Origin: Actinomycetota bacterium
GTDB lineage: Bacteria; Actinomycetota; Acidimicrobiia; Spongiisociales; UBA5794
Assembly: GCA_013151445.1 (NCBI GenBank)
Contig: JAADIG010000057.1
Coordinates: 1 to 35,380 of the forward strand
Direction of reading: 5' to 3'
DNA: 35,380 bases
The notes beneath the pieces were generated by a model. It was not told the origin of the DNA. It made no database searches and was given only the letters and a program-made list of their open reading frames with translations. Every line of letters starts with the position of its first letter. Within the stretch, counting starts at the first letter, position 1. This document shows positions 4,142-19,719 of this stretch, piece after piece. A program made the position numbers and the translations under genes.

Positions 4142-4244
4142 GAGCCTCGGGGAAGATCGCGCGCTGACGGCGCCGTTCCGCCGCAGGTCGTCCGGTGGGA
4201 ACACGAGATGTGGTCGGCCGAAAACGCCAAGAAAGGGGGACCAT

Positions 4245-4274
4245 TTGACGCGGTGAAATCACGCCTCCTATTAT
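4245..4274 (+). promoter_or_regulatory. Predicted promoter of the ROK/ABC/GH operon (leaderless)
   Basis: A TTGACG -35 box (4245-4250), an 18-nt spacer and a TATTAT -10 box (4269-4274) form a good sigma-70-type promoter. The -10 ends only 8 nt before the ATG at 4283, so transcription probably starts at or next to the start codon. No Shine-Dalgarno sequence precedes that ATG, which fits a leaderless mRNA. Confidence 0.65.
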
Positions 4275-4295
4275 TTCATCCAATGAATGAAATAA
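4271..4295. promoter_or_regulatory. Palindromic operator overlapping the -10 box and ROK start codon
   Basis: The arms TTATTTCAT (4271-4279) and ATGAAATAA (4287-4295) are perfect inverted repeats around a 7-nt centre that is itself nearly symmetric (CA-a-TG), centred at 4283. ROK repressors bind A/T-rich palindromes of this size. Its position over the -10 box, likely +1 and start codon suggests direct autorepression of the whole operon by the ROK protein encoded there. Assignment to that protein is inference. Confidence 0.65.
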
Positions 4296-5566
4296 GAGTT
4301 GATCGATATTTCGGGAAAGCAGTCAACCTCAGCTTGGTGCTGAATCTTGTCAAGAGTGCTGGTCCAATCTCCCGCGCAGAGATCGCGACACGGTCCGGTC
4401 TGAGTGCGGCCACGGTCTCCAACCTCTCGTCTGAACTGATCGACGACGGCCTGGTACATGAAACCGGTGTGGTCGAAACCTCCCGAGGGCGCCCCCCGGT
4501 CACCTTGAGTCTCAACAGCAAGGCCAAGTACGTCGTCGGGGTGAAGGTCATGCCCGGGTCACTCGTAGCGGTGGTCACCGATCTTGACGCACAGGTCGTC
4601 TCGTATCAGGAATCAACGGAACTCGATGAAGCATCGTTTCGCAACGGTAAAGCCTCAGCCGCTGTGGTAGTTGGGAACATCGCCAGCCTGGTCAAGTCTG
4701 TTATCACCGCGTCGGGCGTGGACCAGGCCGACCTACTGGGTGTCGGTCTTGGTCTCGCCGGAATTGTGGACAGCACGACCGGGACGTGTCGGTACTCGCC
4801 ATTTTTCGGTTGGCGCGATGTCGATCTCGCCAGTCCTCTGGCATCGCTCCTGGGGCTTGATGTCTACTTGGAGAACGATGTCAACTCGCTGACGATCGCC
4901 GAGCAGTGGTTCGGTGATGGGAGGGGTTATGACTCCTTTGTGGTGGTGACCGTCGGCAGCGGTGTAGGTGCCGGGTTTGTGCTGAACGGTCAGTTCTATG
5001 GCGGAGACGGCCGCGGCGTTGGTGAACTCGGCCATATCACCGTGATGCCCTCTGGGCCGACGTGCGGGTGCGGAAAGCGCGGTTGTCTAGAGGTAATGGC
5101 GAGTGATGCCGCGCTTGTTGCGGCAGCGAAAAAGGCCGTACAACGTGGCGAGCTCACTCTTCTCGATGAGTCGTCCGAGGTGACTCTGGAGACTGTGGTC
5201 AGCGCGGCAACAGCAGGTGACGAGCCCGCACGGCGCCTGCTTGCAGATTCCGGCCGTTGGCTTGGAGTGGGGCTGGCCATGATCGTGAACCTTCTCAACC
5301 CCGAGCTACTGATCGTCGCCGGGGAGGGAGTTGAGGCGGGGAGCTGGCGTCTCGGACCGATGCAAGAAGCGTTGGAAGAGAACCGATTCGACTCCCTCGG
5401 TTCAGGAACCAAACTCGTCGTCGAGTCGGCAGGTGACGTTACCTGGGCGCGCGGAGCGGCGTGCGTCGTCCTCAGCGAGTTCTTCAAGTCACCGCTGCAC
5501 CGTGGTCGCCCCGCGGCTGTGCCGGCCGGCGCCGGTCGTGGTGTCCATGGAGAAGAGTTGCCATGA
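4283..5566 (+). CDS. ROK-family transcriptional repressor, first gene of the sugar operon
   Basis: An N-terminal winged helix-turn-helix (SRAEIATRSGLSAATVSNLSS) is followed by a ROK sugar-binding domain with GVGLGLAGIVDS, ENDVNSLTIAEQWFG and the zinc motif CGCGKRGCLE. The ATP-binding loop of ROK kinases (DxGGT) is replaced by VKVMPGS, so this is a regulator and not a sugar kinase. The ATG at 4283 is chosen because MNEIRVDRYFGKAVNLSLVL matches typical ROK N termini and the promoter lies just before it; an upstream ATG at 4208 would precede the promoter. The stop overlaps the next start as ATGA. The likely inducer is the imported oligosaccharide or a breakdown product. It is a paralogue of the ROK protein at 18511-19719. 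Confidence 0.92.
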   Translation: MNEIRVDRYFGKAVNLSLVLNLVKSAGPISRAEIATRSGLSAATVSNLSSELIDDGLVHETGVVETSRGRPPVTLSLNSKAKYVVGVKVMPGSLVAVVTDLDAQVVSYQESTELDEASFRNGKASAAVVVGNIASLVKSVITASGVDQADLLGVGLGLAGIVDSTTGTCRYSPFFGWRDVDLASPLASLLGLDVYLENDVNSLTIAEQWFGDGRGYDSFVVVTVGSGVGAGFVLNGQFYGGDGRGVGELGHITVMPSGPTCGCGKRGCLEVMASDAALVAAAKKAVQRGELTLLDESSEVTLETVVSAATAGDEPARRLLADSGRWLGVGLAMIVNLLNPELLIVAGEGVEAGSWRLGPMQEALEENRFDSLGSGTKLVVESAGDVTWARGAACVVLSEFFKSPLHRGRPAAVPAGAGRGVHGEELP

Positions 5567-6441
5567 CGTGGTTGGGTTCCGCACGGCGTTGGTGGGTCGT
5601 ATTCCTCGCGCCGAGTTTTGCCCTGCTGCTCCTCTTCACGGTGGTCCCAATCGTGGCGGCGGGTGTTCTAAGTCTGTTCGAGTGGGATCTCCTCACCAAG
5701 CCCGAATTCGTGGCCCTGGGCAACTTCACGGAGCTAGCAGGCGACCGGCAGTTTCGTGCGGCGGTTGTCCATACGTTGGTTTTCATCGCCGGTTACCTAC
5801 CCGTCGTAATGGTTGTCGGGCTCTCGCTGGCACTCTTGTTGAATCGACGAAGTCGTCTCGCCGGCGTGTCCCGAGTGGTGTTCTTCATGCCGGTCGTATC
5901 GGCGTGGGTTGCGGTGGCGTTGATGTGGCGGTGGATGCTGAACTCGCGCTTCGGTGTCATCAACTGGATGCTCAGTCTCGTCGGTATCGACGGCCCTCAG
6001 TGGTTATTCGAGCGCGGGTGGGCGATGGTTTCGGTCATTGCGGTCAGTGTTTGGAAGGACGCCGGTTTTGTCATGATCCTCTTCCTCGCTGGCCTGCAAG
6101 CCATTCCTGCAGACTGTCGTGAGGCAGCCTTCGTGGACGGAGCGAATCCGTGGCAGACGTTCTGGAAGATCACGCTTCCACTTTTAACTCCGACCGTGTT
6201 TTTGGTCTCGGTCATTCTGCTCATCAACTCATTCCAGGTGTTCGAGCAGGTATGGATACTCACCGGAGGCGGTCCGCTGGAGTCGACGACGGTGGTCGTC
6301 GAACAGATCGTCCGAAATGCGTTCAGTTTCGGTCGCATGGGGTACGCCGCGGCGATGTCGTGGATTCTGTTCGCCTTTATCTTCATCGTCACCTTGATCC
6401 AGACGCGGCTGCAACGAAGGTGGGTTCACTATGGCGGATAG
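5563..6441 (+). CDS. Sugar ABC transporter permease, MalF/UgpA type (CUT1)
   Basis: This 292-residue inner-membrane protein has about six hydrophobic helices and the binding-protein-dependent transport signature (EAA loop) EAAFVDGANPWQTFWKITLP, which contacts the ATPase. The first helix (WWVVFLAPSFALLLLFTVVPIV) and the following periplasmic segment are typical of MalF/UgpA/LacF-type permeases that lack the long MalF loop. The ATG at 5563 overlaps the ROK stop (ATGA) and has GGAGAAGAG upstream, so translation is probably coupled. An in-frame upstream ATG lies inside the ROK gene and encodes an Arg/Pro-rich extension that does not belong to the family. It pairs with the next permease. Confidence 0.93.
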   Translation: MTWLGSARRWWVVFLAPSFALLLLFTVVPIVAAGVLSLFEWDLLTKPEFVALGNFTELAGDRQFRAAVVHTLVFIAGYLPVVMVVGLSLALLLNRRSRLAGVSRVVFFMPVVSAWVAVALMWRWMLNSRFGVINWMLSLVGIDGPQWLFERGWAMVSVIAVSVWKDAGFVMILFLAGLQAIPADCREAAFVDGANPWQTFWKITLPLLTPTVFLVSVILLINSFQVFEQVWILTGGGPLESTTVVVEQIVRNAFSFGRMGYAAAMSWILFAFIFIVTLIQTRLQRRWVHYGG

Positions 6442-7309
6442 CCCACTCCAGGTTGCGGATCGGTCGATTGTGCTCCCACGCAAGCGCGCAGCTGTCCGCC
6501 TGCGCAGATCCGCCGGATGGCTCGTTCTCGGAGTGCTCGGGCTCACCATGATCTTTCCATTCGCATGGAGCCTGTCGACATCGTTCCAGGGCACGGACCG
6601 TCTTCTCCAAGTTCCGCCTCAGCTCATACCGGAAGCACCGACACTCGATGCGTACCGCCGGGTGGCTGAGGTAATACCCCTCGTTCGAATACTGATGAAC
6701 TCGATCGTAGTCACCCTGTCCGTGACCATTCTTCAGATCATAACGAGCGCCCTCGCCGGATACGGACTCGCCCGCTTCAAATTCAAGGGTCGTCAGATCC
6801 TGTTCCTTCTCTACCTCGGCACCCTGATGGTGCCGTTTCAGGTCACGATCGTTCCGCTGTTCATCGGGATGAGCAGGCTCGGCTGGCTCAATTCTCTGCA
6901 GGCCCTGATTCTTCCCATGATTGCGAGCGCCTTCGGGGTGTTCTTGTTTCGGCAGTACTTCCTGCAGATGCCGGACGAGATGGAGGAGGCGGCTGCAATC
7001 GACGGCGCCGGACCCTGGCGAACCTTCTGGAAGGTAGCGTTTCCCTATGCTCGCCCGGTGGCCGCGACCCACGGCATTCTGGCGTTCATGGCGTCGTGGA
7101 ACTCCTTCTTGTGGCCCCTGTTTATCGCTCGAGATGAGCAATCGATGACGCTTCCCGTTGGGCTTGCCTCACTCCATGGCAGATATCAGACCGACTGGAA
7201 CCTGGTGATGGCAGGTTCCGTGATTGCTGTTGTGCCGGTGATTCTGGTGTTCGCTGCCATGCAGCGACACATCGCTGCGGGCCTACTCCTCGGTGGTGTG
7301 AACCGGTGA
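6431..7309 (+). CDS. Sugar ABC transporter permease, MalG/UgpE type (CUT1)
   Basis: This 292-residue partner permease has an Arg-rich N terminus, six predicted transmembrane helices and the EAA loop EAAAIDGAGPWRTFWKVAFP. The N-terminal PFAWSLSTSFQ segment and the C-terminal VPVILVFAAMQRHIAAGLLLGGVNR are characteristic of MalG/UgpE-type CUT1 permeases. It overlaps the previous gene by 11 nt, which implies co-translation. No ATP-binding subunit gene is present anywhere in the operon, so the pair probably uses a shared MsiK/MalK-like ATPase encoded elsewhere. Confidence 0.93.
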   Translation: MADSPLQVADRSIVLPRKRAAVRLRRSAGWLVLGVLGLTMIFPFAWSLSTSFQGTDRLLQVPPQLIPEAPTLDAYRRVAEVIPLVRILMNSIVVTLSVTILQIITSALAGYGLARFKFKGRQILFLLYLGTLMVPFQVTIVPLFIGMSRLGWLNSLQALILPMIASAFGVFLFRQYFLQMPDEMEEAAAIDGAGPWRTFWKVAFPYARPVAATHGILAFMASWNSFLWPLFIARDEQSMTLPVGLASLHGRYQTDWNLVMAGSVIAVVPVILVFAAMQRHIAAGLLLGGVNR

Positions 7310-7407: not shown

Positions 7408-8745
7408 ATGAAAAAACGAATACTGATATTGGTCGGTGTGATGGCGCTACTTGCTGCCGCGTGCGGCGGGGGCGCATCGACGACGACCACGACAACGACG
7501 GCAGAAGAGGCAACCGCCCCGACTACGACACAGGCACCAGCAGAACCGACAACGACCCAAGCAACGACGACCGCGGCACCAGCCGAACCGACGACGATCC
7601 GGTACTTTACGTTCTCGGCGGCGCCGGACAATCTCGACGTTCTCGACGAGATGATCGCGGCGTTCGAGGCGCAGAACCCCGATGTCAAAGTCGAGGTAGA
7701 GACGGCACCCTTCGGAGACTACTTCACGTTGTTGCAGACCCAAATAGCGGGTAATGATGCTCCCGACGCGTTTGAGCTCAACTTTGAGAGCTTCGTGTCG
7801 TTCGCCTCGAAGGGCGTCCTAGCCGACCTCGGTCCTCTAACCACAGCAGACTCGGACTTCGATGGCGCAGCGTACTACCAACGGGCTTTCGATGCTTTTG
7901 CAATCGACGGCACTCAGTACGCCTTGCCTGAGAGTTACTCGACCGTGATGCTGTTCTACAACAAGGACCTGTTCGACCAAGCCGGGATTGCATACCCGAA
8001 TGACAACTGGACCTGGACCGACGAACGCGCCGCTGCCGAAGCAATCAATGCATTGGGTGACAACGTGTGGGGTTCGTTCGCAGGTGTTCACTTCTGGGAG
8101 TTCTACAAAGCTGCCGCACAGAGCGGGTGTTCGTTCTTCACCGGGGATCAGGTGACTGTGAACGGTGCGGGTTGTGTTGAGGCTCTGGACTTCATGATCG
8201 GTAACGTAACGAGCGGCGTGCAGCCCTCGGCAGCGGACATGGGCGGCGTCTCCGACGGCGACATGTTCATCAATGGTGAGCTTGGCATGATCACCACAGG
8301 TATCTGGATGTTTGGCGCCTTCGCCGATGCCCCATTCGAGTGGGACGTTGTCGTCGAGCCGGGCAACACCCAGGGCGGAAGTCACTTCTTTGCGAACGGT
8401 GTCGGCGTCTCGGCCGCATCTGACAAACAAGAGGCTGCCTACCGCTGGCTGCGGTTCTTCACGTCGAGTGATGAATCTGCGAAGCTCCGCATCGCGGCTT
8501 CGTGGGAGCTGCCTACCCTGACGGACCAGAGCCTGTATGACGCCTACCTCGCGGCTACGCCCCCGGCGAACCGTGAAGCAGTCCTGAAATCACTGGAGAA
8601 CGTTGTCGTTCCACCGGTGATCGAGCGTCAAAACGAGATGCAGGATCTGCTCAATGGACTCATCGAGCGGGCCCTGGCTGGCGAAATGACATCACAGGAA
8701 GCCCTTGATCAGGCGAAGGCCGAGATCGAAGCCCTCCTGAACTAA
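7408..8745 (+). CDS. Sugar-binding lipoprotein of the ABC transporter (extracellular solute-binding family 1)
   Basis: This 445-residue protein has a lipoprotein signal peptide with lipobox LLAAAC (Cys at 19), a 40-residue Thr/Ala/Pro linker and a family 1 solute-binding domain. Recognisable family segments are the mature start TIRYFTFSAAPDNLDVLDEMIAAFEAQNPDVKVEVE, then YALPESYSTVMLFYNKDLFDQAGI and FFANGVGVSAASDKQEAAYRWLRFF. It should capture an oligosaccharide outside the membrane and pass it to the two permeases encoded upstream. The start has a very strong purine-rich ribosome binding site (GGGAGGAAGG, 7389-7398), unlike the overlapping genes around it, which fits the usual high expression of binding proteins. 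A strong hairpin follows 17 nt after the stop codon. Confidence 0.94.
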   Translation: MKKRILILVGVMALLAAACGGGASTTTTTTTAEEATAPTTTQAPAEPTTTQATTTAAPAEPTTIRYFTFSAAPDNLDVLDEMIAAFEAQNPDVKVEVETAPFGDYFTLLQTQIAGNDAPDAFELNFESFVSFASKGVLADLGPLTTADSDFDGAAYYQRAFDAFAIDGTQYALPESYSTVMLFYNKDLFDQAGIAYPNDNWTWTDERAAAEAINALGDNVWGSFAGVHFWEFYKAAAQSGCSFFTGDQVTVNGAGCVEALDFMIGNVTSGVQPSAADMGGVSDGDMFINGELGMITTGIWMFGAFADAPFEWDVVVEPGNTQGGSHFFANGVGVSAASDKQEAAYRWLRFFTSSDESAKLRIAASWELPTLTDQSLYDAYLAATPPANREAVLKSLENVVVPPVIERQNEMQDLLNGLIERALAGEMTSQEALDQAKAEIEALLN

Positions 8746-8762: not shown

Positions 8763-8801
8763 AGTGGGGGTGAAGCAGCACGCATCTGCTTCACCCCCAC
8801 T
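8763..8801 (+). terminator. Strong hairpin between binding protein and GH31 genes
   Basis: AGTGGGGGTGAAGCAG (8763-8778) and its perfect 16-nt complement (8786-8801) enclose a 7-nt loop CACGCAT. There is no downstream T-run. Placed between two co-oriented genes, it probably works as a partial terminator or as an mRNA 3'-end stabiliser that raises the binding-protein level over the downstream enzymes, as known for other binding-protein operons. It also argues against the GTG at 8764 being the GH31 start. Confidence 0.75.
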
Positions 8802-8823
8802 CACTATCTATCCGGAGTTGACA

Positions 8824-11400
8824 TTGGTTGACCTGTTGATCCACGATCCCGCTGGTGATCACAACCCCTACGATGCCGTGCCGTGGTCTCGTGACCCATT
8901 GGTCCCCACCACACAAGATGCCATAACAGTCGGTGTACGCACCACAACAAATTTTGAGTCGGTTGTTATTGAACTGAACAGCGCCGACGACACCTCTACC
9001 GCTCTGCTCAAGAATGATTCCGGCACCTGGACCGGGACGATAGATCCGCTCGATGGTGATGCCCGGTACCGGTTCCTTGGGTCCTTGCCGGACACCGAGC
9101 GCGATGAGGTCACCGAATGGTTTGACCTTCCGGTGGCCCGATGGAATGCCGTACGGTTCACGTCTCTCGCAACCATCGGAACATCCATTGAGGCCTCGGG
9201 CAACGACGCTCTGCTGCGCATTGACACCAAACAGCGAGGTGTACTCGACTGGGTGATTGCAAACGGGAGCAACGACGGACCTCCGGGGGAGACATGCACG
9301 AGCGGGGGTTGGACGGCTGTTCTAGTCGACGGCAGTCTCGCTCTGTCCAGCGAACTCGGCACCATCACCCTCGCTGTCGAGGGTTGTCGCATCGGCGATC
9401 AAATCAGTGCCTGGCGCCTGGTGTGGGACCTCGACAACGAGGAGCTCCTGTTCGGAACCGGGGAGCGCTTCGACAGTCTCAATCAGCGTGGCAAGGCTCC
9501 GGACATTCGCGTCTACGAGCAGTACAAACAGCAAGGTGGGCGAACATATTTTCCGCTGCCGTGGCTGTGGTCCACCCGCGGATATGGCCTCGCCATCGAC
9601 GGGAAATCTCGAATCTCCTACGACCTCGGTGTCACCGCGCAGGACCGGGCCTCTGCGACGATCCCGACTCAATCAGGAGCGTCCGGCCGCTGGTACTTCG
9701 GGAAGCCAAAGGCTCTGGTACAAGCGTACGTTCACGATACCGGGCGGCCTTCACCGCTCCCGGTATGGGGATATGGGCCGTGGATGTCCGGAAACGAATG
9801 GAACACTGACCGGCGGGTTCGCGAGGTTGTGGAACGTTCGGTTGCTGAAGGCATCCCGGCGTCAGTCATAGTCATTGAGGCATGGGCAGACGAAGTCACC
9901 TTCTACCTTTTCAACGGGGCCACCCACGATGTTGTCGACGGGGATACCGCCGTTGCGGCTGACTCGATGCGGTACGGGACCGAATGGCCCGATCCGGCAG
10001 GGTTGGTCGACTGGCTTCACGAGCAGGGGGTGCGGGTTCTGCTCTGGCAGATTCCACTCCTAAAAGACGTGGAAGGCCACGCCCAGCACGACGCCGATCT
10101 TCGTTTTGTCGGCGAGGCCGGATTGGCCGTCGGCACGACCGACGGCGGCGTTTACCGTAATCGCGGCTGGTGGTTCCCGAACTCTCGCGCGATCGATTTC
10201 ACCAACCCGGAGGCGCGGCGCTGGTGGTTCAACAAACGGGCCTATCTGCTCGATGAGATCGGCATCGACGGATTCAAGACCGATGGGGGCGAGCACCTGT
10301 GGGGGAGTGACGTGTCTACCTTTGCGGGTGAGACAGGTGACGAAGCCGCCAACGCGTATCCGACCCACTACCTCAGTTCGTATCACGCGTTTCTTCGTGA
10401 GCACGGCCACGACAAGCCCCTCACTTTCAGCCGGGCGGGTTTTACCGGATCGCAGGCGTTCCCGGCTCATTGGGCAGGGGATGAGGACTCCACATGGGTA
10501 GCCTTCCGGGCTTCCCTTGTTGCCGGTTTGTCCGCTGCAGCATCGGGAATCGCTTTTTGGGGGTGGGATCTCGCCGGCTTTTCGAAAGAACTGCCAACCG
10601 CGGACCTGTACAAACGTTCCACCGCCATGGCCGCCTTTTGTCCAATCATGCAATACCACTCCGAGCACAACGAGCACCGGCAACCGCTTGCTGATCGAAC
10701 GCCCTGGAACGTCGCCGATCACACCGGTGATGCCACGGTCACCGACGTCTACCGGTTCTATGCCAACTTGCGGATGAATCTTGTTCCCTATTTGCTGTCG
10801 CTTGGGGATGAGGCAGTCACCCACGGAACACCGATCATGCGGCCGTTGGTGCTCGAGTTTCCCCACGATGAAGAGGCTGTGGGAATCGAGGATCAGTTCC
10901 TGCTCGGTGCGGACATCCTTGTTGCCCCCGTCTTGACCCCGGACGCAACCGAGCGCAACGTGTACCTGCCAGACGCCGAATGGTTTGACCTGTGGACCGG
11001 AGCGCCGATGGATGCGGGATGGAGTGTGGTGCCGGTGACCTCGGATCTTGTCCCGGTGTTTGTTCGCGCCGGGGCGTGCATCCCGCTCTGGATGCCGGAC
11101 ACCGTCGAACTGGGGGCCGAGGTCGGTCTTCCCAGCTCCGAGTCCGGCCATCTTGTCCTGATGATGTTCCCCGGAACAGGCAAGCGCAGCGTGGTTGACC
11201 CCTTAGGTGGGGGGTCGATATCCGCGCAGCTCTCGCTGGAGAACCAGATGTTGACGGTCGCCACGGACGGCGTTCCAGCGGGGACTTCTCTCTGGATTCG
11301 GGGGTGTGCGGCGGGAGAAACACCGGCGGTGGATCACCACCAACAGCTCGATGCCGGAGCCAGCGTCGTGACGGTCAGAGTGAGTTTCGATGCAAGCTAG
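8824..11400 (+). CDS. Intracellular GH31 alpha-glucosidase-type enzyme, candidate cyclic/branched alpha-glucan hydrolase
   Basis: This protein of about 858 residues has no signal peptide. It has an N-terminal beta domain (HDPAGDHNPYDAVPWSRDP), a GH31 N-terminal beta-sandwich (LLFGTGERFDSLNQRGK), then a (beta/alpha)8 barrel from VWGYGPWMSGNEWN with nucleophile Asp in IDGFKTDGGE and acid/base Asp in HWAGDEDSTW, and C-terminal beta domains. It aligns motif by motif with the first GH31 module of the large secreted protein at 12686-18412. That resembles the known relation between cycloalternan-degrading enzyme and 3-alpha-isomaltosyltransferase. A TTG at 8824 is preferred because GGAG lies 6 nt upstream; the GTG at 8764 sits inside the hairpin stem. 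It overlaps the GH15 gene by 11 nt. GH31 membership is secure; the substrate is inferred. Confidence 0.88.
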   Translation: MVDLLIHDPAGDHNPYDAVPWSRDPLVPTTQDAITVGVRTTTNFESVVIELNSADDTSTALLKNDSGTWTGTIDPLDGDARYRFLGSLPDTERDEVTEWFDLPVARWNAVRFTSLATIGTSIEASGNDALLRIDTKQRGVLDWVIANGSNDGPPGETCTSGGWTAVLVDGSLALSSELGTITLAVEGCRIGDQISAWRLVWDLDNEELLFGTGERFDSLNQRGKAPDIRVYEQYKQQGGRTYFPLPWLWSTRGYGLAIDGKSRISYDLGVTAQDRASATIPTQSGASGRWYFGKPKALVQAYVHDTGRPSPLPVWGYGPWMSGNEWNTDRRVREVVERSVAEGIPASVIVIEAWADEVTFYLFNGATHDVVDGDTAVAADSMRYGTEWPDPAGLVDWLHEQGVRVLLWQIPLLKDVEGHAQHDADLRFVGEAGLAVGTTDGGVYRNRGWWFPNSRAIDFTNPEARRWWFNKRAYLLDEIGIDGFKTDGGEHLWGSDVSTFAGETGDEAANAYPTHYLSSYHAFLREHGHDKPLTFSRAGFTGSQAFPAHWAGDEDSTWVAFRASLVAGLSAAASGIAFWGWDLAGFSKELPTADLYKRSTAMAAFCPIMQYHSEHNEHRQPLADRTPWNVADHTGDATVTDVYRFYANLRMNLVPYLLSLGDEAVTHGTPIMRPLVLEFPHDEEAVGIEDQFLLGADILVAPVLTPDATERNVYLPDAEWFDLWTGAPMDAGWSVVPVTSDLVPVFVRAGACIPLWMPDTVELGAEVGLPSSESGHLVLMMFPGTGKRSVVDPLGGGSISAQLSLENQMLTVATDGVPAGTSLWIRGCAAGETPAVDHHQQLDAGASVVTVRVSFDAS

Positions 11401-12574
11401 CTCCGGGCCGCGCCCCCTCGTAAAGTCGAGTATCGAGTTGATTCTCAACCACCAGGCATCGACAGGTGCGTATCTGGCTGCTCCGGGGTACGGAACATAC
11501 GACTATTGCTGGATGCGCGATGGGGCTTTCATTGCTTCTGCCATGGATGCGCACGGTCACCATGACAGCGCCGAGGCATTTCATCGTTGGGTCGCCCGAG
11601 CAATAGAGAGATACGCCGACAAGGTGGGCCTCCTGGAGGGAAACCTGGAAACAGCGCTTCGAGGCACCGAGGATCCACTCCAGCCGCTCGACGATCGATA
11701 CGTCCTGCACACTCGCTTCACCGTGGACGGTGAGGAAGGCAGCAACGACTGGGGGAACTTCCAGCTCGATGGATACGGATTCTGGCTGACGATGTTGGCC
11801 CGCCATCTGAAGGCAACACTCGCCGATCCAACTCCGTATCTGAGAGCGGTAGATCTTGTTCGCCGATACCTCAGTGCAACCTGGGAGCTGACATGTTTCG
11901 ACTGCTGGGAGGAGTATCCGACCCGTCGTCACTCGACGACATGGGCTGCTGTGGCACGGGGGTTGACCGACAGCGCCGGGCTTGTTAGCGGCGAGTCGGC
12001 CGGCATGGTTTCCAAGACGATCACAAAGCGGCTCCTCGACGACGCCGCCGTGCACGGGGTGATCCGAAAGTTCATTTGCGATCCACGGTCCGGTGCCGCC
12101 CCAGTGGCGCCGTCGGCGGGTCTCGCTGTTGCCGGTCACGAGCGTGTCGGACGGGTGCTCGCCGAGGACGCCATCGATGGTGGTGTCCTGCTTGTGCTCG
12201 GGGAGCTTGGTCCCTTGCCGCCGAACCACGCCGCGATTCGGGCAACCCTCAACAGGGTCGAGGACACACTCGTGGTCGATGGTGGTGTTCACCGGTACCT
12301 GGAAGATGAGTACTACGGCGGCGGTCTCTGGATCGTTCTGGCGGGTGCGCTCGCTTGTGTCCAGGCCAAGTATGACAAGACCCGGGCGAGCGAAGTTCTC
12401 GACTGGATCGAACGGCAGGCGGACGCCGACGGATATCTGGGCGAGCAGGTCGATTCAGCGCTTCGGCATCCCGACCGCCGATCTCCATGGGTCGAGAGAT
12501 GGGGCCCCCCGGCCTCTCCGCTGCTGTGGTCCCACGCAATGTATCTGCTGGGGACCGCCTCCATCAAGATGTGA
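11390..12574 (+). CDS. Compact GH15 glucoamylase/glucodextranase-like enzyme, catalytic barrel only
   Basis: This 394-residue cytoplasmic protein consists almost only of an (alpha/alpha)6 barrel. Family signatures are YDYCWMRDGAFIASAMDAHG near residue 37, DWGNFQLDGYGFWL near 120, the acid motif CWEEYPTRRHSTTW (Glu174 as general acid) and, near the C terminus, YLGEQVD (Glu352 as probable general base, compared with the SEQ motif of fungal glucoamylase) followed by SPLLWSHAMYL. Bacterial GH15 enzymes are usually above 600 residues with an N-terminal super-beta-sandwich; that domain is absent here. The gene overlaps the GH31 gene by 11 nt, so it is likely translated with it. A role in releasing glucose from short alpha-1,6 or alpha-1,4 oligosaccharides such as isomaltose is inferred. 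Confidence 0.87.
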   Translation: MQASSGPRPLVKSSIELILNHQASTGAYLAAPGYGTYDYCWMRDGAFIASAMDAHGHHDSAEAFHRWVARAIERYADKVGLLEGNLETALRGTEDPLQPLDDRYVLHTRFTVDGEEGSNDWGNFQLDGYGFWLTMLARHLKATLADPTPYLRAVDLVRRYLSATWELTCFDCWEEYPTRRHSTTWAAVARGLTDSAGLVSGESAGMVSKTITKRLLDDAAVHGVIRKFICDPRSGAAPVAPSAGLAVAGHERVGRVLAEDAIDGGVLLVLGELGPLPPNHAAIRATLNRVEDTLVVDGGVHRYLEDEYYGGGLWIVLAGALACVQAKYDKTRASEVLDWIERQADADGYLGEQVDSALRHPDRRSPWVERWGPPASPLLWSHAMYLLGTASIKM

Positions 12575-12610: not shown

Positions 12611-12649
12611 CATGGAGTCCCATCCGCGGTGAGCAGATGGGACTCCATG
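12611..12649. terminator. Bidirectional terminator between convergent operons
   Basis: CATGGAGTCCCATC (12611-12624) and its perfect 14-nt complement (12636-12649) enclose an 11-nt loop. The plus-strand side continues with GTTTCT. It lies between the GH15 stop (12574) and the stop of the minus-strand giant gene (12686), so it can end transcription from both sides. Confidence 0.8.
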
Positions 12650-12685: not shown

Positions 12686-15600
12686 TTAGAACCCGCCGGT
12701 CGTGGTTCCACCATTGCCGGAGGCGGGTGAGGTGAACGTATTGTTCGCACCCGATTCCCATTCGTCGACGGTGTCGGGATAGTTGGCTTCCTGGCGCTTG
12801 ATGCACTTCCACTCAACCGCTGCGTTGGGCTGCAGAACGGATATGGTTCCCGTCCATGTCGGATAGCTCGTTGGATCAAGTTTCACCGCGCTGGCGGCGT
12901 TCCATTCCCCGAGCTGGGGAATGTTGCCGATGACATACACCGACTGGCCCGACGTCGTAGTCCCATTCGTACACACGAAGTCCATCGCAGATGGGGTCTG
13001 ACCGAGCGTGAATACGAGCGTCTTGCTCGTTGTCACGCTCACCGAACCCGTTTTTGCAACCACGAGATTGCTGCCCGCGTTGTACCAGCCGCTGGTGGCG
13101 GCATCGAAGGCTGCCTTGGTGTTGTACTGCGTGAGTGTTCCACTGTTGTAGGTGACCGCCGACACCTGGGTGTTGTTGACAACCAGCTCCACCACGTTGT
13201 CGCGGCTTCCGGGTGCTCCTGTGTAGGTCCCGCTTGCTGCTGCGATGGTGACGGTGGCTGTCGTTCCGGTCTGAGACTGGCTGATCAGTGTGGTCCGCAC
13301 ACTGCCGGTTTGGTAGGCAGTGGAGATCCCGTCATCCTCGTAGAGGGTGAAGGACGTACTTGTCGGATCTGCATACACACGGGCGATCAGTTCGTTCCGT
13401 GTCGTGGAGTCAAGACGTCGTCCTGTCACGTTCATGGTTTGATCGTCAACGTACATTCGAGGGATGATCGCTCCCGCTCTTGCCATTGCGGGAAGCCGGA
13501 ACGTTCCATTGATCCACAGGGGGAGGTTGTTAAACCACTGACCCGTACTGCTGTATCGCTCGTTTGTGTAGAAGTTGATCCAATCGCCTGCGGGAAGGTA
13601 CATGTTCCGCTGCCGTTGGTTAGCGCCGGCAACTACACCAACAAGCAGGTCTCGCCCGATGAGCTTCTGGCTGCCCATCTCACGCACGTTGGAATCGTTC
13701 TGGTAGTAGTAAACCGGTGGCGGAACCAACGGCTCTCCGTATAGGTAGGCGCGGTGGGCCAACGAGTAGTAGTACGGCGTGAGTTCGTAGCGCTGACGGA
13801 TGTTTGCGAGGTTGCTGTCAACATCACCGATCAGATCGGGTGACGTGTCGGCGCAGTCGCAGAGGTTCTCGGTGTGGGGTCGCACGGGAACATCGAACCA
13901 GGCTCCGTTAGCGAACCACTGTGTGTACAACTCGTCGAGATCGGAGTCCAGCATCTCACGGCGGAAGCCACCGATATCGGATCCGAAGTAGTCGATCCCC
14001 GACATGGACATCTGCATCTGGACGTTCGCCTGCGCAGCGAGAGCCGTGAGCTTCGAACCGATGTCTCCGGACCACATCGCAACGCCTTCGCGTTGGATGC
14101 CTGCGGCACCGGACCGGGCGAGGAGGAACGGTCGTTGGGTGACGTTGTTCTCTTCATATTCGGTCGTGATGCTGCGAGCCCACTTCAAGTTGTACATGTT
14201 GTGGTAGTCGGCCTGGTCGTGTTTTCCGGGGAGTACGCCCTGCGTCCAGTCGGCTGCATCGAACATTTCGGGTTCGCCCAGATCGAGCCAATGACCGATT
14301 ATTCCTGCATCAATGAGTGGCTGCCTCTTCGTATCGTGCCAATACACTCCCGCCGACTCGATCGTCCAGTCGATCATCCCGCCGCGGCCCCACCAATCGT
14401 TTGTTGTGAGGTACGTTGCTCCACACGCCGAGCAACCGTCACGCACCAGGTACCCACGATCCTCAAGGTCAGTGTGCTCTGCAAGACCCTTCCCGACGTA
14501 CGACTCTTCGATGGTTATCAAACCGATGCCGTCGTTGGTTTCGTAGTTGCCAATCTTGGTTGTCGGATTGGGGAAGGCGGTCGTATCCCAAGTAAGGGTC
14601 CCCATGTTCGTGTTATCCGAGCCAGCGGTAACTCCACCGAACCAGAACAGGTCGAGGAGGAATCCATCGATGGGGAATTTGCTACTGCGTAACCCGGTAA
14701 GAATTCCGTCGATTTCTGCCCAGTTGTCATAGCCGTACTCCGAGACCCACAGCCCGAGAGCCTTTTTCGGTGGAACAGGAGGTCGGCCCGTTAGTTCCAT
14801 ATAGTCCTCGCGGAGGTCGGGCAGGTCTGGACCGGTCATGGTGTACCAGCGAATCTGGTCACCCCATGTCTCCATGGTCCATGGGTCTCCCGTGAGATCC
14901 CACTGTTGTTTGTACACTTGGTCTACGAACAGTCCGTAGTTCTTGTTGCTTGCTCCGACGGCGAACAGCACCGGTATCTGAGCGTTACCGACCGGGCCGT
15001 TGTCAGCGTCGTACACCATTGCGTTCCCCTGGGTATTGCCAGGTGTACGGACACGACCGACCCAGTCGCCGTCCGCGCTGCCACCGGTGAAGAACTGTTC
15101 ACCGAGGCCGTACGCGTTCTCCATACTCGATTTAGTGAACGACAGTCCCTTCCACGTCTGGGTGAGGTTCACCGGACAGACGGTGTGCAGAAGTAGGTCG
15201 GGGGTCACGGTTGTGTCGTAGACATCCGCACACAGGGTTGTGCCGTTGACCTCGACCCTGATATCCGCTGTCGAAAGGATATTGCCCGACTTTGTGAAGC
15301 TTGTCGGCCCGGTGTAGTCAACCTTGTCGACCTGGCCGGTTGTGAAGATCGGCGCATCGGCGCCCGGACTGTTGCCCGCTCCCAACTCGAAATGCACCAG
15401 GTCGTCATCCAGGAACTCGACGATCAGATAACTACCGCCTGCGGTGAATTCGGTGCGAGCGATTCCCGTGTACGCCGCGAGATCGATCGTTCGGCTGGCC
15501 GTACTGCTCGCCAGCTTTACATAGGTAGTTTGCTCGACATCGTTGCGGTACCAGCCCTCGGTTGCGACCTTAAGCGACGTCAATGTCGCATACTCGGTCA

Positions 15601-18412
15601 TCGCTGTGCCACCCTTCTTGACAGTCTTAGGCCGAGACCCGACGACCTGGAGGGTGCTAGTTGTTGGCATCGGTGGCGCGGTGACCGTTACGTCCTGAGT
15701 CGTGGAACTCTTGGAGACGGAGAAGGTGCGATAGGTGCTGGTGGAATCGTCGTAGTAGTCATAGGACGATGTTCCGTCCGGGAAGATCCGGAACGCAAGA
15801 TTCGCGTAGGTGTTGATGTTGTTACTGATTGTCCCGCCAAGCTGATAGTCGGCGTTGAGATTGAGGGGTACTACGGCGCCCGGTCGAGCGTAGACCGGGA
15901 TCGTGTCGAGTTCGACCGTGTCGGTGACCGTGACTGGACCCAGGACGGTGTTGCCACTCCAGAAGTCGACCCAGCGACCCGACGGAATGTAGACACTCTT
16001 GGTGGTGGCAAATTCAGTAGTGACCGGAGCCACCAGAAGCTGATCACCGAACATGTACTGCTGGTCGAGGGCAGCGGCAGTGGTATCGCTCGGGAACTCG
16101 GACGCCATTGCTCGCATCAGCGCGACACCAGTCGTGGAGCTCCGGTTTGCTTCGGTGTAGATGTAGGGGAGCAGGTTCATCCGAAGGTTGGCGAACTTTC
16201 GGAATATCGGGATGACAGTGGTATCGCCGGTACGGGCCTGGACATTCCACGGTGTGCGGGCTTCCGACGTCGTCGGATTGGACTTTTCGGAGTGATACTG
16301 CATGACGGGCGAGAAGGTCGCCTGGGCAGTGGAGCGCAGATACAGCTCAGCGGTCGGGAATGAGCCGGTGAATCCAGCGAGATCCCAAGACCAGAACGGC
16401 ACCCCGGACTGGCCGGCGCTGAGGCCTGCTCGAACGGCTTCCCGGAACGCCCCGAAGGTAGATTCTTGGTCACCCGCCCAGAAGATTGAGTTGGTCTGGG
16501 CTCCTGACGTGCCCGCTCGGCTGAAGATTGCGCCCGTGCCGCTGGTCTTGGTATCGACGTAGGCGTCGTAGACACGGGTGTACTCATTGGGGTATTGGTT
16601 GCGCATTTCGTCACCGGTACGACCGTCGCTGAAGAGCACATTGCGTCCAAAGATTGCTTCGCTGCCGTCCGTCTTGAATCCATCGATTCCAACATCATCG
16701 AACAGGTAAGCGCGTTTGCTCATCCACCAATTGGAGGCCGCGGTGCTGGTGAAGTCCGGAACCATACTGTCGCCGAACCACTTTCCCGTAGGGATCCGGT
16801 ACGGACTCCCCGCTCCATCTTCGACGACGTAACCCTGAGTCGTGGCGTAGGACTTGTCGTTGAGATGCTGCTGCGGGGCCGACGAAGGGTTGGTGTCGAA
16901 GTTCTCTTTGAGGACCGGTATCTGCCACAGCAGAACCTTGATGTCCTGGTTGTGGGCCTTGGTCACCATCGCTGCGGGGTCTGACCATGCGGATCCGCTT
17001 GGGAAGGTGAGGTCGCTTAGGCTTAGGGTGCCAGATCCGCTCGTCGCAGTGTACGTAGCGCCGTGCCACACATAGAACGTGGCTTCGTCGCTCCATTGCT
17101 CAAGCACCATGGCGCTGTGGGGAATGTCGTAGTTCGTTACGTTCGCGAGCTCTGCCTCAACCTCAACCTGGGTGTTCCACTCGTTAGCCGACATCCAGAG
17201 GCCGAATGCCCATTTTGGTGGTAGCTGTGGTCGGCCGGTCAGCGTGGTGTATTGGTTGAGGACCTCGGTTGGATTGCCGGCAAAGAAGTAGTAGTCGAGG
17301 GTGGAGTTCAGGCTTCCATCCGTGTCGACGGTGAACCCCGCCATGTCGCTGAGGTAGGTGCCGAGATTGAAAATAGAGTATCGCGTGCTCGGTATGTAGA
17401 CACCGTACCCTGCCGAGTTCGTGAAGAATGGGACGGACAAGTAGGTACGTTTTGTACTGCCCTGGTTGCGGTACTGGTTGTACACGTAGTTGTTGACGTC
17501 CTCGCCACGTTGGTTCAACGCGTTATAACGTTCGCCGAATCCCTCGAAACGTTCGTTCGTGGGACTCTTGAGGTGGTCCTCGATCTTCGTAACGGTTGAG
17601 CTGCCGTCGCTGGCCCACCCGATGTTGCGGAACGTCGCCGGGTCGTACTGCTCCGTGATGAGAGTCGTGCCGTCTCCCTTGTAGATAGATAGCCGATACG
17701 GCGTCTTTTGGAGCTTGAGGACCAGGTCGGAGGTGGCAATCTGAAGCGTGCCGGACGAGTTGGTAATTGTGTAGTTCGATGCTCCCGAGATGTTGAGACC
17801 GTTGCCGTTGGGGGCTATTTGGGTGCGGAAGCTGTCGGTCGTGGGAAACGCGAACCGGATCTTAGGCGTGAAGTCTCCGGCGCTGTCACCGGTGGTCACG
17901 TCGACCGATGTTCCGTTGTCAACGTAGCCTGTGACGTTCGTGACGGTGCTCCAGGACGTAACGGTGAACGAGAAGGGTCCGATGCTTCGCTGACCCGTGC
18001 CGTTGACATCGGCGTTCACGGTGTAGGTGATGTCGTCGCCACGGGCGAACGTTCCCATGTCGATGTCCCAATAGGAATTGTTGCCGCTGTTGGATGTCCA
18101 GCTCGCCCCTATCGGCGTCTGGTTCAGACCGTTCTTGGTCCATGTCACCCACACGGACTGGCCGGATTCGATCGGCCAGGTAGTGGCCTTCACATGAACC
18201 GCGTCGCCCGCCATCGGGTCGCGTGGAGACCGTTCGGTCAGTGTTGTGGCGTACAGTTCGTCATCGCCGTACGGGTCATGGAAGACTCCGTCGAGAGCTT
18301 GCGCACGCGGTGCGGGTCCGGCCAGGACGAGAACCGATGCAAGAAGGGTGATCTGTAGCGCAAGGGCAAGAGATCGCGAGGCGGTACGGGTGCGGTGGGC
18401 TCGACGGTTCAC
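12686..18412 (-). CDS. Giant secreted double-GH31 alpha-glucan-modifying enzyme with C-terminal CBM20
   Basis: About 1908 residues from a GTG at 18412, preceded by GAAGGGGA; an in-frame ATG at 18445 adds 11 residues and lacks this site. Numbering here is from that ATG. Order: Sec signal peptide ending near AQA (residue 50); beta domains to about 400; GH31 module 1 from PPKWAFGLWMSANEWN (409), nucleophile Asp593 in FKTDGSE, acid/base Asp659 in WAGDQEST; beta domains (about 780-1010); GH31 module 2 with PPKKALGLWVSEYGYD (1225), nucleophile Asp1388 in HWLDLGEPE, acid/base Asp1461 in MWSGD; beta domains; CBM20 at 1821-1905 with LGEWNAASAVKL, YPTWTG and DEWESGANN. Module 1 resembles the intracellular GH31 and isomaltosyltransferase (CtsY) types, module 2 the LDLGEPE class that I associate with 6-alpha-glucosyltransferase (CtsZ). 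Both catalytic pairs are intact. Starch binding is well supported; the transferase reactions are inferred. Confidence 0.87.
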   Translation of the reverse strand: MNRRAHRTRTASRSLALALQITLLASVLVLAGPAPRAQALDGVFHDPYGDDELYATTLTERSPRDPMAGDAVHVKATTWPIESGQSVWVTWTKNGLNQTPIGASWTSNSGNNSYWDIDMGTFARGDDITYTVNADVNGTGQRSIGPFSFTVTSWSTVTNVTGYVDNGTSVDVTTGDSAGDFTPKIRFAFPTTDSFRTQIAPNGNGLNISGASNYTITNSSGTLQIATSDLVLKLQKTPYRLSIYKGDGTTLITEQYDPATFRNIGWASDGSSTVTKIEDHLKSPTNERFEGFGERYNALNQRGEDVNNYVYNQYRNQGSTKRTYLSVPFFTNSAGYGVYIPSTRYSIFNLGTYLSDMAGFTVDTDGSLNSTLDYYFFAGNPTEVLNQYTTLTGRPQLPPKWAFGLWMSANEWNTQVEVEAELANVTNYDIPHSAMVLEQWSDEATFYVWHGATYTATSGSGTLSLSDLTFPSGSAWSDPAAMVTKAHNQDIKVLLWQIPVLKENFDTNPSSAPQQHLNDKSYATTQGYVVEDGAGSPYRIPTGKWFGDSMVPDFTSTAASNWWMSKRAYLFDDVGIDGFKTDGSEAIFGRNVLFSDGRTGDEMRNQYPNEYTRVYDAYVDTKTSGTGAIFSRAGTSGAQTNSIFWAGDQESTFGAFREAVRAGLSAGQSGVPFWSWDLAGFTGSFPTAELYLRSTAQATFSPVMQYHSEKSNPTTSEARTPWNVQARTGDTTVIPIFRKFANLRMNLLPYIYTEANRSSTTGVALMRAMASEFPSDTTAAALDQQYMFGDQLLVAPVTTEFATTKSVYIPSGRWVDFWSGNTVLGPVTVTDTVELDTIPVYARPGAVVPLNLNADYQLGGTISNNINTYANLAFRIFPDGTSSYDYYDDSTSTYRTFSVSKSSTTQDVTVTAPPMPTTSTLQVVGSRPKTVKKGGTAMTEYATLTSLKVATEGWYRNDVEQTTYVKLASSTASRTIDLAAYTGIARTEFTAGGSYLIVEFLDDDLVHFELGAGNSPGADAPIFTTGQVDKVDYTGPTSFTKSGNILSTADIRVEVNGTTLCADVYDTTVTPDLLLHTVCPVNLTQTWKGLSFTKSSMENAYGLGEQFFTGGSADGDWVGRVRTPGNTQGNAMVYDADNGPVGNAQIPVLFAVGASNKNYGLFVDQVYKQQWDLTGDPWTMETWGDQIRWYTMTGPDLPDLREDYMELTGRPPVPPKKALGLWVSEYGYDNWAEIDGILTGLRSSKFPIDGFLLDLFWFGGVTAGSDNTNMGTLTWDTTAFPNPTTKIGNYETNDGIGLITIEESYVGKGLAEHTDLEDRGYLVRDGCSACGATYLTTNDWWGRGGMIDWTIESAGVYWHDTKRQPLIDAGIIGHWLDLGEPEMFDAADWTQGVLPGKHDQADYHNMYNLKWARSITTEYEENNVTQRPFLLARSGAAGIQREGVAMWSGDIGSKLTALAAQANVQMQMSMSGIDYFGSDIGGFRREMLDSDLDELYTQWFANGAWFDVPVRPHTENLCDCADTSPDLIGDVDSNLANIRQRYELTPYYYSLAHRAYLYGEPLVPPPVYYYQNDSNVREMGSQKLIGRDLLVGVVAGANQRQRNMYLPAGDWINFYTNERYSSTGQWFNNLPLWINGTFRLPAMARAGAIIPRMYVDDQTMNVTGRRLDSTTRNELIARVYADPTSTSFTLYEDDGISTAYQTGSVRTTLISQSQTGTTATVTIAAASGTYTGAPGSRDNVVELVVNNTQVSAVTYNSGTLTQYNTKAAFDAATSGWYNAGSNLVVAKTGSVSVTTSKTLVFTLGQTPSAMDFVCTNGTTTSGQSVYVIGNIPQLGEWNAASAVKLDPTSYPTWTGTISVLQPNAAVEWKCIKRQEANYPDTVDEWESGANNTFTSPASGNGGTTTGGF

Positions 18413-18450
18413 AGAATTCCCCTTCAGTGACTCGAAATTGGGCATTTTGC

Positions 18451-18482
18451 ACTATCTTCGGTCACTGACCGAAGAAAGTCAA
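18451..18482 (-). promoter_or_regulatory. Promoter and palindromic ROK-type operator of the giant GH31 gene
   Basis: TCTTCGGTCA and TGACCGAAGA are perfect 10-nt arms around a single central base at 18465. After one mismatched pair the symmetry continues with ACT/AGT, giving a 29-bp palindrome (18451-18479). On the minus strand a TTGACT -35 box (18482-18477) abuts it, and candidate -10 boxes (AAGATA or GATAGT) lie inside its distal arm. A repressor bound here would block the promoter directly. The ROK gene immediately upstream is the natural candidate regulator; its sequence differs from the operator at 4271. Confidence 0.7.
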
Positions 18483-18510: not shown

Positions 18511-19719
18511 TCACATCGAACGAGCCACGAGAGCCGGTCGGCGGGAGTTTTTCGGCCGAGCCGTGGGAGCTTCAAAGAGTTCGCCGAGAAGCAGACTTGC
18601 AGCACCTCGGGCCCAGGCTTCATCGCTCCACGGTTTGATGACCACCCTGAGGTTGTCTCCAAGACTCCCGAAGCAATGAAGACGGAGGGACGTTTCAAAC
18701 TCCTCTTGGATAATATCCCCCGCCTGAGTGCCCTCTCCACTCAGGACGATGACGTCGGGGTTCAGAATATTCACGAGGTTGGCAGTGGCAACTCCCAGGA
18801 TGCGGGCCGCCTCCAGGAACACGTCGAGTGCCGCTCGTTCTCCCGAACGTGCGAGATCCGCAGCTTCGTCGATCGTGACGCGACGACCGATGCGGCGCGA
18901 CACCTCGGATGAGATCGCCGGGTCGCTGATTACGGACTCCAGGCACCCGGAGGCACCGCAGGCGCAGGTCGATCCTGAGGGTTCCACTTGTACATGTCCG
19001 AACTCACCCGCACCGCCGTTTGCGCCGCGGAAAAGCTGCCCGTCCAGGACCATGCCAAGGCCGACGCCATGGCCCAGGCAGACAACGAGGAGGTTCGAGA
19101 CGCTCCGTCCCGCACCGAACCACTGTTCCGTGGCGGTGAGCGTATTGGCATCGTTGTCAATGATCACCGGCAGGTCGAGGCGATCCTCAAGGAGCCGAGC
19201 GAGCGGAACCTCCCGCCAGTCGCCGTAGGGGGCGTGGTGCACGACGCCGTTGTGAGAGTCGACGATGCCCGCAAGCCCAACGCCGACTCCGTAGACGGGT
19301 CGATCGGCGGCGTCGAGGATGAGGCGGCTGCTCACCTCTTCGACGGCGTCGAGAACATCGTCGACATCGTGCCGGTCGAGTGTCAGCCGTTGCCGTGCGA
19401 TGATTGTTGCGTCGAGGTCGGTGAGAACCGCGATAACCGCCGACTCGGTGACTTTCACTCCCACCGCATAACCTGCTGATGCGTTGAGTTGCAACAGAAC
19501 CGGGCGCCGACCGCCAGCTGACTTGCCGGTGGCTCTTTCTCGCAGGAGACCATTGGCGATGAGTTGACCGGCGATTCCGGATACGGTCGCCGGACTCAGG
19601 CCGGTCGCGACGGCGATTTGACTGCGTGACGCCAGGCCTTGCTCACGCACCACGTTGAGCACGATTGCCTGGTTTATCTCGCGGATAAGTTGTTTGCTAC
19701 CTGTGCGAACGCGCTGCAT
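18511..19719 (-). CDS. ROK-family transcriptional repressor, probable regulator of the giant GH31 gene
   Basis: This 402-residue protein has a winged helix-turn-helix at residues about 29-57 (SRSQIAVATGLSPATVSGIAG) and a ROK domain with GVGVGLAGIVDS, DNDANTLTATEQWFG and zinc motif CACGASGCLE. As in the ROK protein at 4283, the kinase ATP loop is absent (VKVTESAV), so it should act only as a sugar-responsive repressor. The two ROK proteins align throughout and are paralogues. It is encoded just upstream of the giant GH31 gene on the same strand, with a 98-bp gap that holds the 29-bp palindrome. The ATG at 19719 has AAGG about 8 nt upstream. The effector is unknown; a product of starch breakdown is a reasonable guess. 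Confidence 0.91.
   Translation of the reverse strand: MQRVRTGSKQLIREINQAIVLNVVREQGLASRSQIAVATGLSPATVSGIAGQLIANGLLRERATGKSAGGRRPVLLQLNASAGYAVGVKVTESAVIAVLTDLDATIIARQRLTLDRHDVDDVLDAVEEVSSRLILDAADRPVYGVGVGLAGIVDSHNGVVHHAPYGDWREVPLARLLEDRLDLPVIIDNDANTLTATEQWFGAGRSVSNLLVVCLGHGVGLGMVLDGQLFRGANGGAGEFGHVQVEPSGSTCACGASGCLESVISDPAISSEVSRRIGRRVTIDEAADLARSGERAALDVFLEAARILGVATANLVNILNPDVIVLSGEGTQAGDIIQEEFETSLRLHCFGSLGDNLRVVIKPWSDEAWARGAASLLLGELFEAPTARPKNSRRPALVARSM

Follow-up and report, generated by a model that had tools for sequence, protein, structure and literature searches.

A predicted one-chain cycloalternan synthase encoded by a rare fusion of two GH31 genes in an Actinomycetota genome

Two GH31 transglucosidases produce cycloalternan (cyclic nigerosyl-nigerose, CNN), and the cycloalternan-degrading enzyme CADE breaks it down (PMC9061262). 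Listeria makes CNN with two enzymes, and its protein Lmo0181 binds this sugar (PMC7676653). The pathway of Listeria monocytogenes consists of the cycloalternan-forming enzyme (CAFE) Lmo2446 and the 6-α-glucosyltransferase Lmo2444, two separate secreted proteins that both carry CBM35 rather than CBM20, together with Lmo0178-0184 for import and degradation. The import operon ends in an annotated α-glucosidase and contains two GH31 genes (L046:8112-13708), of which lmo0182 groups with CNN-degrading enzymes and lmo0183 weakly with the dextranase FjDex31A. CNN loci are also present in actinobacteria (Nonomuraea, Herbidospora, Kribbella, Arthrobacter and others), and the KfGH31A/KfIG pair of Kribbella flavida belongs to such a locus. 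A one-chain enzyme of comparable design is the Thermoanaerobacter thermocopriae CITase, in which a GH66 cyclising glucanotransferase is followed by a C-terminal GH15-type 6-α-glucosyltransferase (PMC13084667, PMC12446779); CITase differs in its families, GH66/GH15 instead of GH31/GH31, and in its products, which are cycloisomaltooligosaccharides.

The stretch of DNA analysed here, referred to as the window, comprises 35,380 nucleotides of an Actinomycetota draft genome and carries the same genes and neighbours as the actinobacterial CNN loci. Its placement in Actinomycetota agrees with the recurrence of genomes of its genus, family and order within the class of the L079 genome (see below); its ribonucleotide reductase was of no use for taxonomy. 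In those loci an Lmo2446-type GH31 with a CBM35 (here M1) and a second GH31 with a CBM20 (M2) are encoded by adjacent genes, the stop and start codons of which overlap in places, and are secreted separately, whereas in the window the two are joined in one gene (Table 1). Module M1 is approximately 59-72% and module M2 approximately 64-76% identical to the unfused proteins. We propose that the fused gene probably encodes a secreted, starch-bound, one-chain CNN synthase.

The minus-strand frame 12686-18445 has no internal stop codons and encodes 1908 amino acids from GTG 18412 or 1919 from ATG 18445. Translation probably starts at the GTG, because GAAGGGGA immediately precedes it and nothing comparable, that is, no ribosome-binding site, is found before the ATG; the choice of this codon in the initial annotation is therefore the better supported one. 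The signal peptide ends near residue 50 and is followed in Pfam searches by an Lmo2446-like N-terminal domain (residues 55-126; PF22681, E=3e-32), GH31 TIM barrels and GH31 C-terminal domains, two of each, a DUF5110 domain (residues 1685-1755) and a CBM20 (residues 1822-1915), which scored 77 bits against a cut-off of 23.3. The nucleophiles D593 (FKTDGSE, M1) and D1388 (WLDLGEPE, M2) and the acid/base residues D659 (FWAGDQ, M1) and D1461 (MWSGDIG, M2) all fall in the alignment columns that hold the catalytic residues of characterised GH31 enzymes. Frame, Pfam domains and catalytic columns thus agree with the original description of a signal peptide, two GH31 modules with intact Asp pairs and a CBM20 in a single chain.

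A scan of one collection of 84,980 genomes for M2 yielded 72 loci. When the window and the locus of Nonomuraea gerenzanensis are added, 39 loci encode both M1 and M2 at a minimum of 58% identity. That the two enzymes are normally separate proteins, as had been supposed at the outset, holds for 37 of these 39 loci, where M1 and M2-CBM20 are encoded side by side by individual genes. The two modules share one frame only in the window and in L079, a metagenome-assembled genome of the same class (Actinomycetes bacterium Dive96_bin3.143). The L079 gene is 81% identical to that of the window and has the same frame and an identical joint, but the contig runs out before its CBM20 region is reached. In Nonomuraea, the stop codon of M1 and the start codon of M2 overlap (ATGA), M2 begins with a signal peptide of its own and the C-terminus of M1 is extended by a stretch that Pfam identifies in the relatives and in Lmo2446 as a CBM35. 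Both this CBM35 stretch and the M2 signal peptide are gone in the window and in L079. The fusion probably originated by an in-frame loss of the C-terminal CBM35 of M1, the stop/start region and the signal peptide of M2. Since the window and L079 pair in the trees of both modules (SH-aLRT 100 and 98) and have the same joint, one fusion event is enough to account for them. It could be argued that the single frame was created when two neighbouring genes were joined by an assembly or sequencing error, the genome being a draft in 159 contigs. This is highly improbable, and indeed largely refuted, because the independent L079 genome has the same fused frame and joint and because the stretch with the CBM35, stop, start and signal peptide is wholly absent and not just frame-shifted. 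As judged from these sequences, the fused gene is a real and rare gene fusion for which a single event suffices. Of 138 genomes of the order that were searched, the remaining 137 showed no fusion, nor was one detected among 395 genomes sampled from the class to which the Arthrobacter genome belongs, and among 394 sampled genomes of the window's own class L079 was the only other case. A third candidate, an open frame of 2101 amino acids in G1058 (= L050), was rejected: in this Phytoactinopolyspora halotolerans locus the frame of M1 continues into that of M2, but a single TAG stop (L050:9599-9601), a few codons 5' of the M2 ATG, separates the two genes. In two Nonomuraea-type genomes (L058:2989-9662 and L060:6367-9671), M1 is split across two frames by a frameshift or an assembly error.

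Residues 48-980 of the fused protein match the Listeria cycloalternan-forming enzyme (PDB 4kmq/5f7u) from end to end with 990 bits, as compared to 470 bits for the next family. In a phylogenetic tree of 43 GH31 cores, M1 falls within the actinobacterial M1 clade (support 100/100), which then joins Lmo2446 (85/70). Its acid/base motif, WAGDQ, resembles the WSGDQ of Lmo2446, as opposed to the WAGDE of CADE-type degraders. The C-terminal CBM35 that Pfam finds in Lmo2446, L108 and L050 is absent from the fused M1; however, it is an accessory domain outside the catalytic definition of a cycloalternan-forming enzyme. The assignment of M1 as CtsY-like is borne out by the full-length homology and the grouping with Lmo2446, and its reading as a predicted CtsY/Lmo2446-type 3-α-isomaltosyltransferase, or cycloalternan-forming enzyme, is well supported.

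Enzymes of the M1 type require isomaltosyl ends. Module M2 had been considered possibly CtsZ-like, and orthology to the CtsZ/Lmo2444/Ps6TG31A enzymes of Bacilli did not hold: with approximately 26% identity to Lmo2444 and Ps6TG31A, M2 forms its own clade (100/99) apart from these two proteins (100/100), so that the Listeria 6-α-glucosyltransferase comes from another GH31 clade. The CtsZ-like role, by contrast, is retained by context and exclusion. The window genome, which is 98% complete, encodes three GH31 modules and one GH15, all at this locus, and a single GH13, apparently cytoplasmic, with a GH1-like gene nearby; M2 is therefore the sole candidate for making the isomaltosyl donor among its GH31, GH15 and GH13 proteins. 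No ortholog of Lmo2444/Ps6TG31A was detected in seven searched genomes with M1 and M2, and no M2-type protein was seen in the Listeria records found, in which Lmo2446 is paired with Lmo2444. Because of this distribution and the lack of another candidate in the genome, together with its position in the operon, M2 most likely replaces the 6-α-glucosyltransferase of Bacilli. The CtsZ of Arthrobacter globiformis A19, at approximately 965 amino acids, would suit the M2 type, represented in Arthrobacter (L108) by a protein of 969 amino acids, an agreement in size only.

Among solved structures, M2 is closest to Agd31B, the single-module oligosaccharide 4-α-glucosyltransferase of Cellvibrio japonicus, with which it shares the nucleophile motif DLGEPEM. 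This transglucosylase is the best PDB match by sequence (198 bits, approximately 22% identity) and the best match of the structure model of M2 (pLDDT 85.5, pTM 0.82) in VIA-align 2 (Z 42.4 over 751 residues at 2.8 Å, the next different enzyme having 39.3); in Foldseek, it ranks about equal with FjDex31A. This kinship, as far as the model goes, speaks for transglucosylation of α-1,4-glucans by M2 and is silent on the linkage made. Agd31B forms α-1,4 and not α-1,6 bonds, which, along with the occurrence of M2 relatives without M1 in other phyla, would fit a different role: M2 could be a disproportionating 4-α-glucosyltransferase of the Agd31B kind, or an α-glucosidase, that conditions maltodextrins, with α-1,6 ends coming from elsewhere, such as environmental isomalto-oligosaccharides or dextrans, and no CNN being made from starch alone. 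We regard this as unlikely, given the low identity to Agd31B, the absence of an alternative enzyme among the GH31, GH13 and GH15 proteins of the genome and the fact that M2 adjoins M1 in the Actinomycetota loci found (39 with both), in the position that the 6-α-glucosyltransferase has in Bacilli. A plain α-xylosidase, maltase or sulfoquinovosidase was rejected for either module: matches to the NCBIfam models for α-xylosidase and MalA fell short of the respective cut-offs, and in the tree, which left out the human maltases GAA and MGAM, both modules stand apart from the α-xylosidase YicI and the sulfoquinovosidase YihQ.

M2-type GH31 proteins, mostly with a CBM20 and with no M1 nearby, are encoded in L076, L078, L081-L085, L087-L107, L109-L112, L114 and L117, which span cyanobacteria, Chloroflexota, Vibrio, Nitrospirota, Bdellovibrionota, Bacteroidota, Planctomycetota and others. 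A search of 13 genomes from other phyla that carry M2 homologs detected no M1-like protein above approximately 34% identity, and CNN formation is therefore not the role of the whole M2 clade. No characterised member of this wide GH31-CBM20 clade was found, nor, in the literature searched, any biochemical characterisation of the fused protein or its close relatives.

Table 1. Features of the fused gene and its surroundings in the window
Feature	Position	Strand	Basis
ROK-family regulator of transporter operon	4208..5566	+	Homology
ABC sugar permease	5461..6441	+	48% identity to its Listeria counterpart in L046
ABC sugar permease	6431..7309	+	Homology
Solute-binding protein like CNN-binding Lmo0181	7408..8745	+	5f7v matched at 410 bits, the next protein at 84 bits
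GH31, cycloalternan-degrading-enzyme-like	8764..11400	+	Groups with KfGH31A/TpCADE/lmo0182; WAGDE motif
GH15, isomaltose-glucohydrolase-like	11390..12574	+	KfIG of Kribbella (5z3d) as sole strong match in the PDB, 195 bits
Fused gene: signal peptide, M1 (CtsY/Lmo2446-like GH31), M2 (GH31), CBM20	12686..18412	-	Frame, Pfam, inspection of ribosome-binding site
CBM20 starch-binding domain	12689..13000	-	Pfam PF00686, E=7.7e-22
M2, GH31 of distinct clade, inferred 6-α-glucosyltransferase	13001..15457	-	PDB search, tree, motif columns, structure comparison
M2 acid/base D1461	14063-14065	-	
M2 nucleophile D1388	14282-14284	-	
Fusion joint, residues 983-996	15458..15499	-	M1 CBM35 and M2 signal peptide missing relative to unfused relatives
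M1, 3-α-isomaltosyltransferase-like GH31 with Lmo2446-like N domain	15500..18295	-	4kmq/5f7u match, tree, motif columns
M1 acid/base D659	16469-16471	-	
M1 nucleophile D593	16667-16669	-	
Signal peptide, residues 12-50, cleavage AQA/LDG	18296..18412	-	Sequence
Palindrome CTTCGGTCASTGACCGAAG, candidate operator	18456..18474	.	Core conserved upstream of L079 fusion
ROK-family regulator directly upstream of fused gene	18511..19719	-	Homology, synteny

A run of genes for a ROK regulator, two permeases, a binding protein, a CADE-like GH31 and a GH15 points towards the fused gene. The regulator, the permeases, the CNN-binding protein and the CADE-type GH31 correspond to those of Listeria, and the GH15 stands in place of the annotated α-glucosidase. 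In the tree, the CADE-like protein groups with KfGH31A and TpCADE (100/99); it has a long branch, no more than 47% identity to other CADEs and a weak Lmo2446-like N domain, and similar genes occur without M1 or M2 in some genomes of the window's genus, family and order. By homology, a CNN utilisation set composed of a CNN-binding protein, a CADE-type GH31 and an α-1,6-glucosidase thus adjoins the synthase, and these neighbours are predicted to be the set needed for CNN import and its cleavage to isomaltose and glucose. Product size is not readable from sequence, and the C-terminal CBM35 that Lmo2446 and unfused relatives possess is missing from M1, so the product might be another alternating or cyclic α-glucan, such as a linear alternan-like oligomer or a ring of greater size, instead of the tetrasaccharide. 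Such a product is very unlikely, as the importer, GH31 and GH15 fit the proteins specific for CNN in Listeria, Trueperella and Kribbella and the catalytic part of M1 is intact.

The ROK gene upstream of the fused gene has orthologs in Kribbella, Kibdelosporangium, Actinocrispum and L079, where they likewise precede M1. Between this gene and the fused gene, both fused loci contain a palindrome with the core TTCGGTNASTKACCGAA (L079:6730-6746), which a scan of the other related loci did not detect and which is a candidate operator for the adjacent ROK regulator or another repressor. No operator common to both operons was found. Between the convergent GH15 and fused genes lies a strong inverted repeat (12615-12645) with 12-base arms and a 7-base loop, probably a shared terminator.

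The anatomy of the sequence, the fusion with its joint and the homologies are observed directly; for the CNN synthase favoured here, we infer activities, linkage specificity and coupling as follows. M2 would supply isomaltosyl ends for use by M1, which, by homology to Lmo2446, would transfer isomaltosyl units to O3 of another isomaltosyl end and then close the ring to release the cyclic tetrasaccharide. CNN would be taken up via the Lmo0181-like binding protein and the ABC permeases and cut at its α-1,3 bonds by the CADE-like GH31 into isomaltose, which the GH15 would convert to glucose. More tentatively, and with lower probability than CNN synthesis as such, a single polypeptide could turn granular starch into CNN, its coupled sites passing M2-made isomaltosyl ends to M1 on a CBM20-bound chain, and M2 could represent a second GH31 lineage of 6-α-glucosyltransferases that evolved apart from the Bacilli type and that cyanobacteria, Chloroflexota, Vibrio and others widely possess in the absence of CtsY.

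The fused gene joins known parts in a way that is rare in nature, and it entails no new chemistry. The parts, the pathway and the gene order have been described, and as far as our sources show, the single-chain form is undescribed in the literature searched. Since CITase already combines a 6-α-glucosyltransferase and a cyclase in one chain, the fusion is a variant on an existing theme. If active, the protein would provide a natural one-enzyme path from starch to cycloalternan, which otherwise takes two enzymes to make, and would serve to test whether linking linkage-making and ring-closing transglycosylases raises yield. The CNN pathway of Actinomycetota uses a candidate 6-α-glucosyltransferase from a GH31 clade other than that of Bacilli, and the analysis brings to light a large uncharacterised GH31-CBM20 clade present in many phyla.
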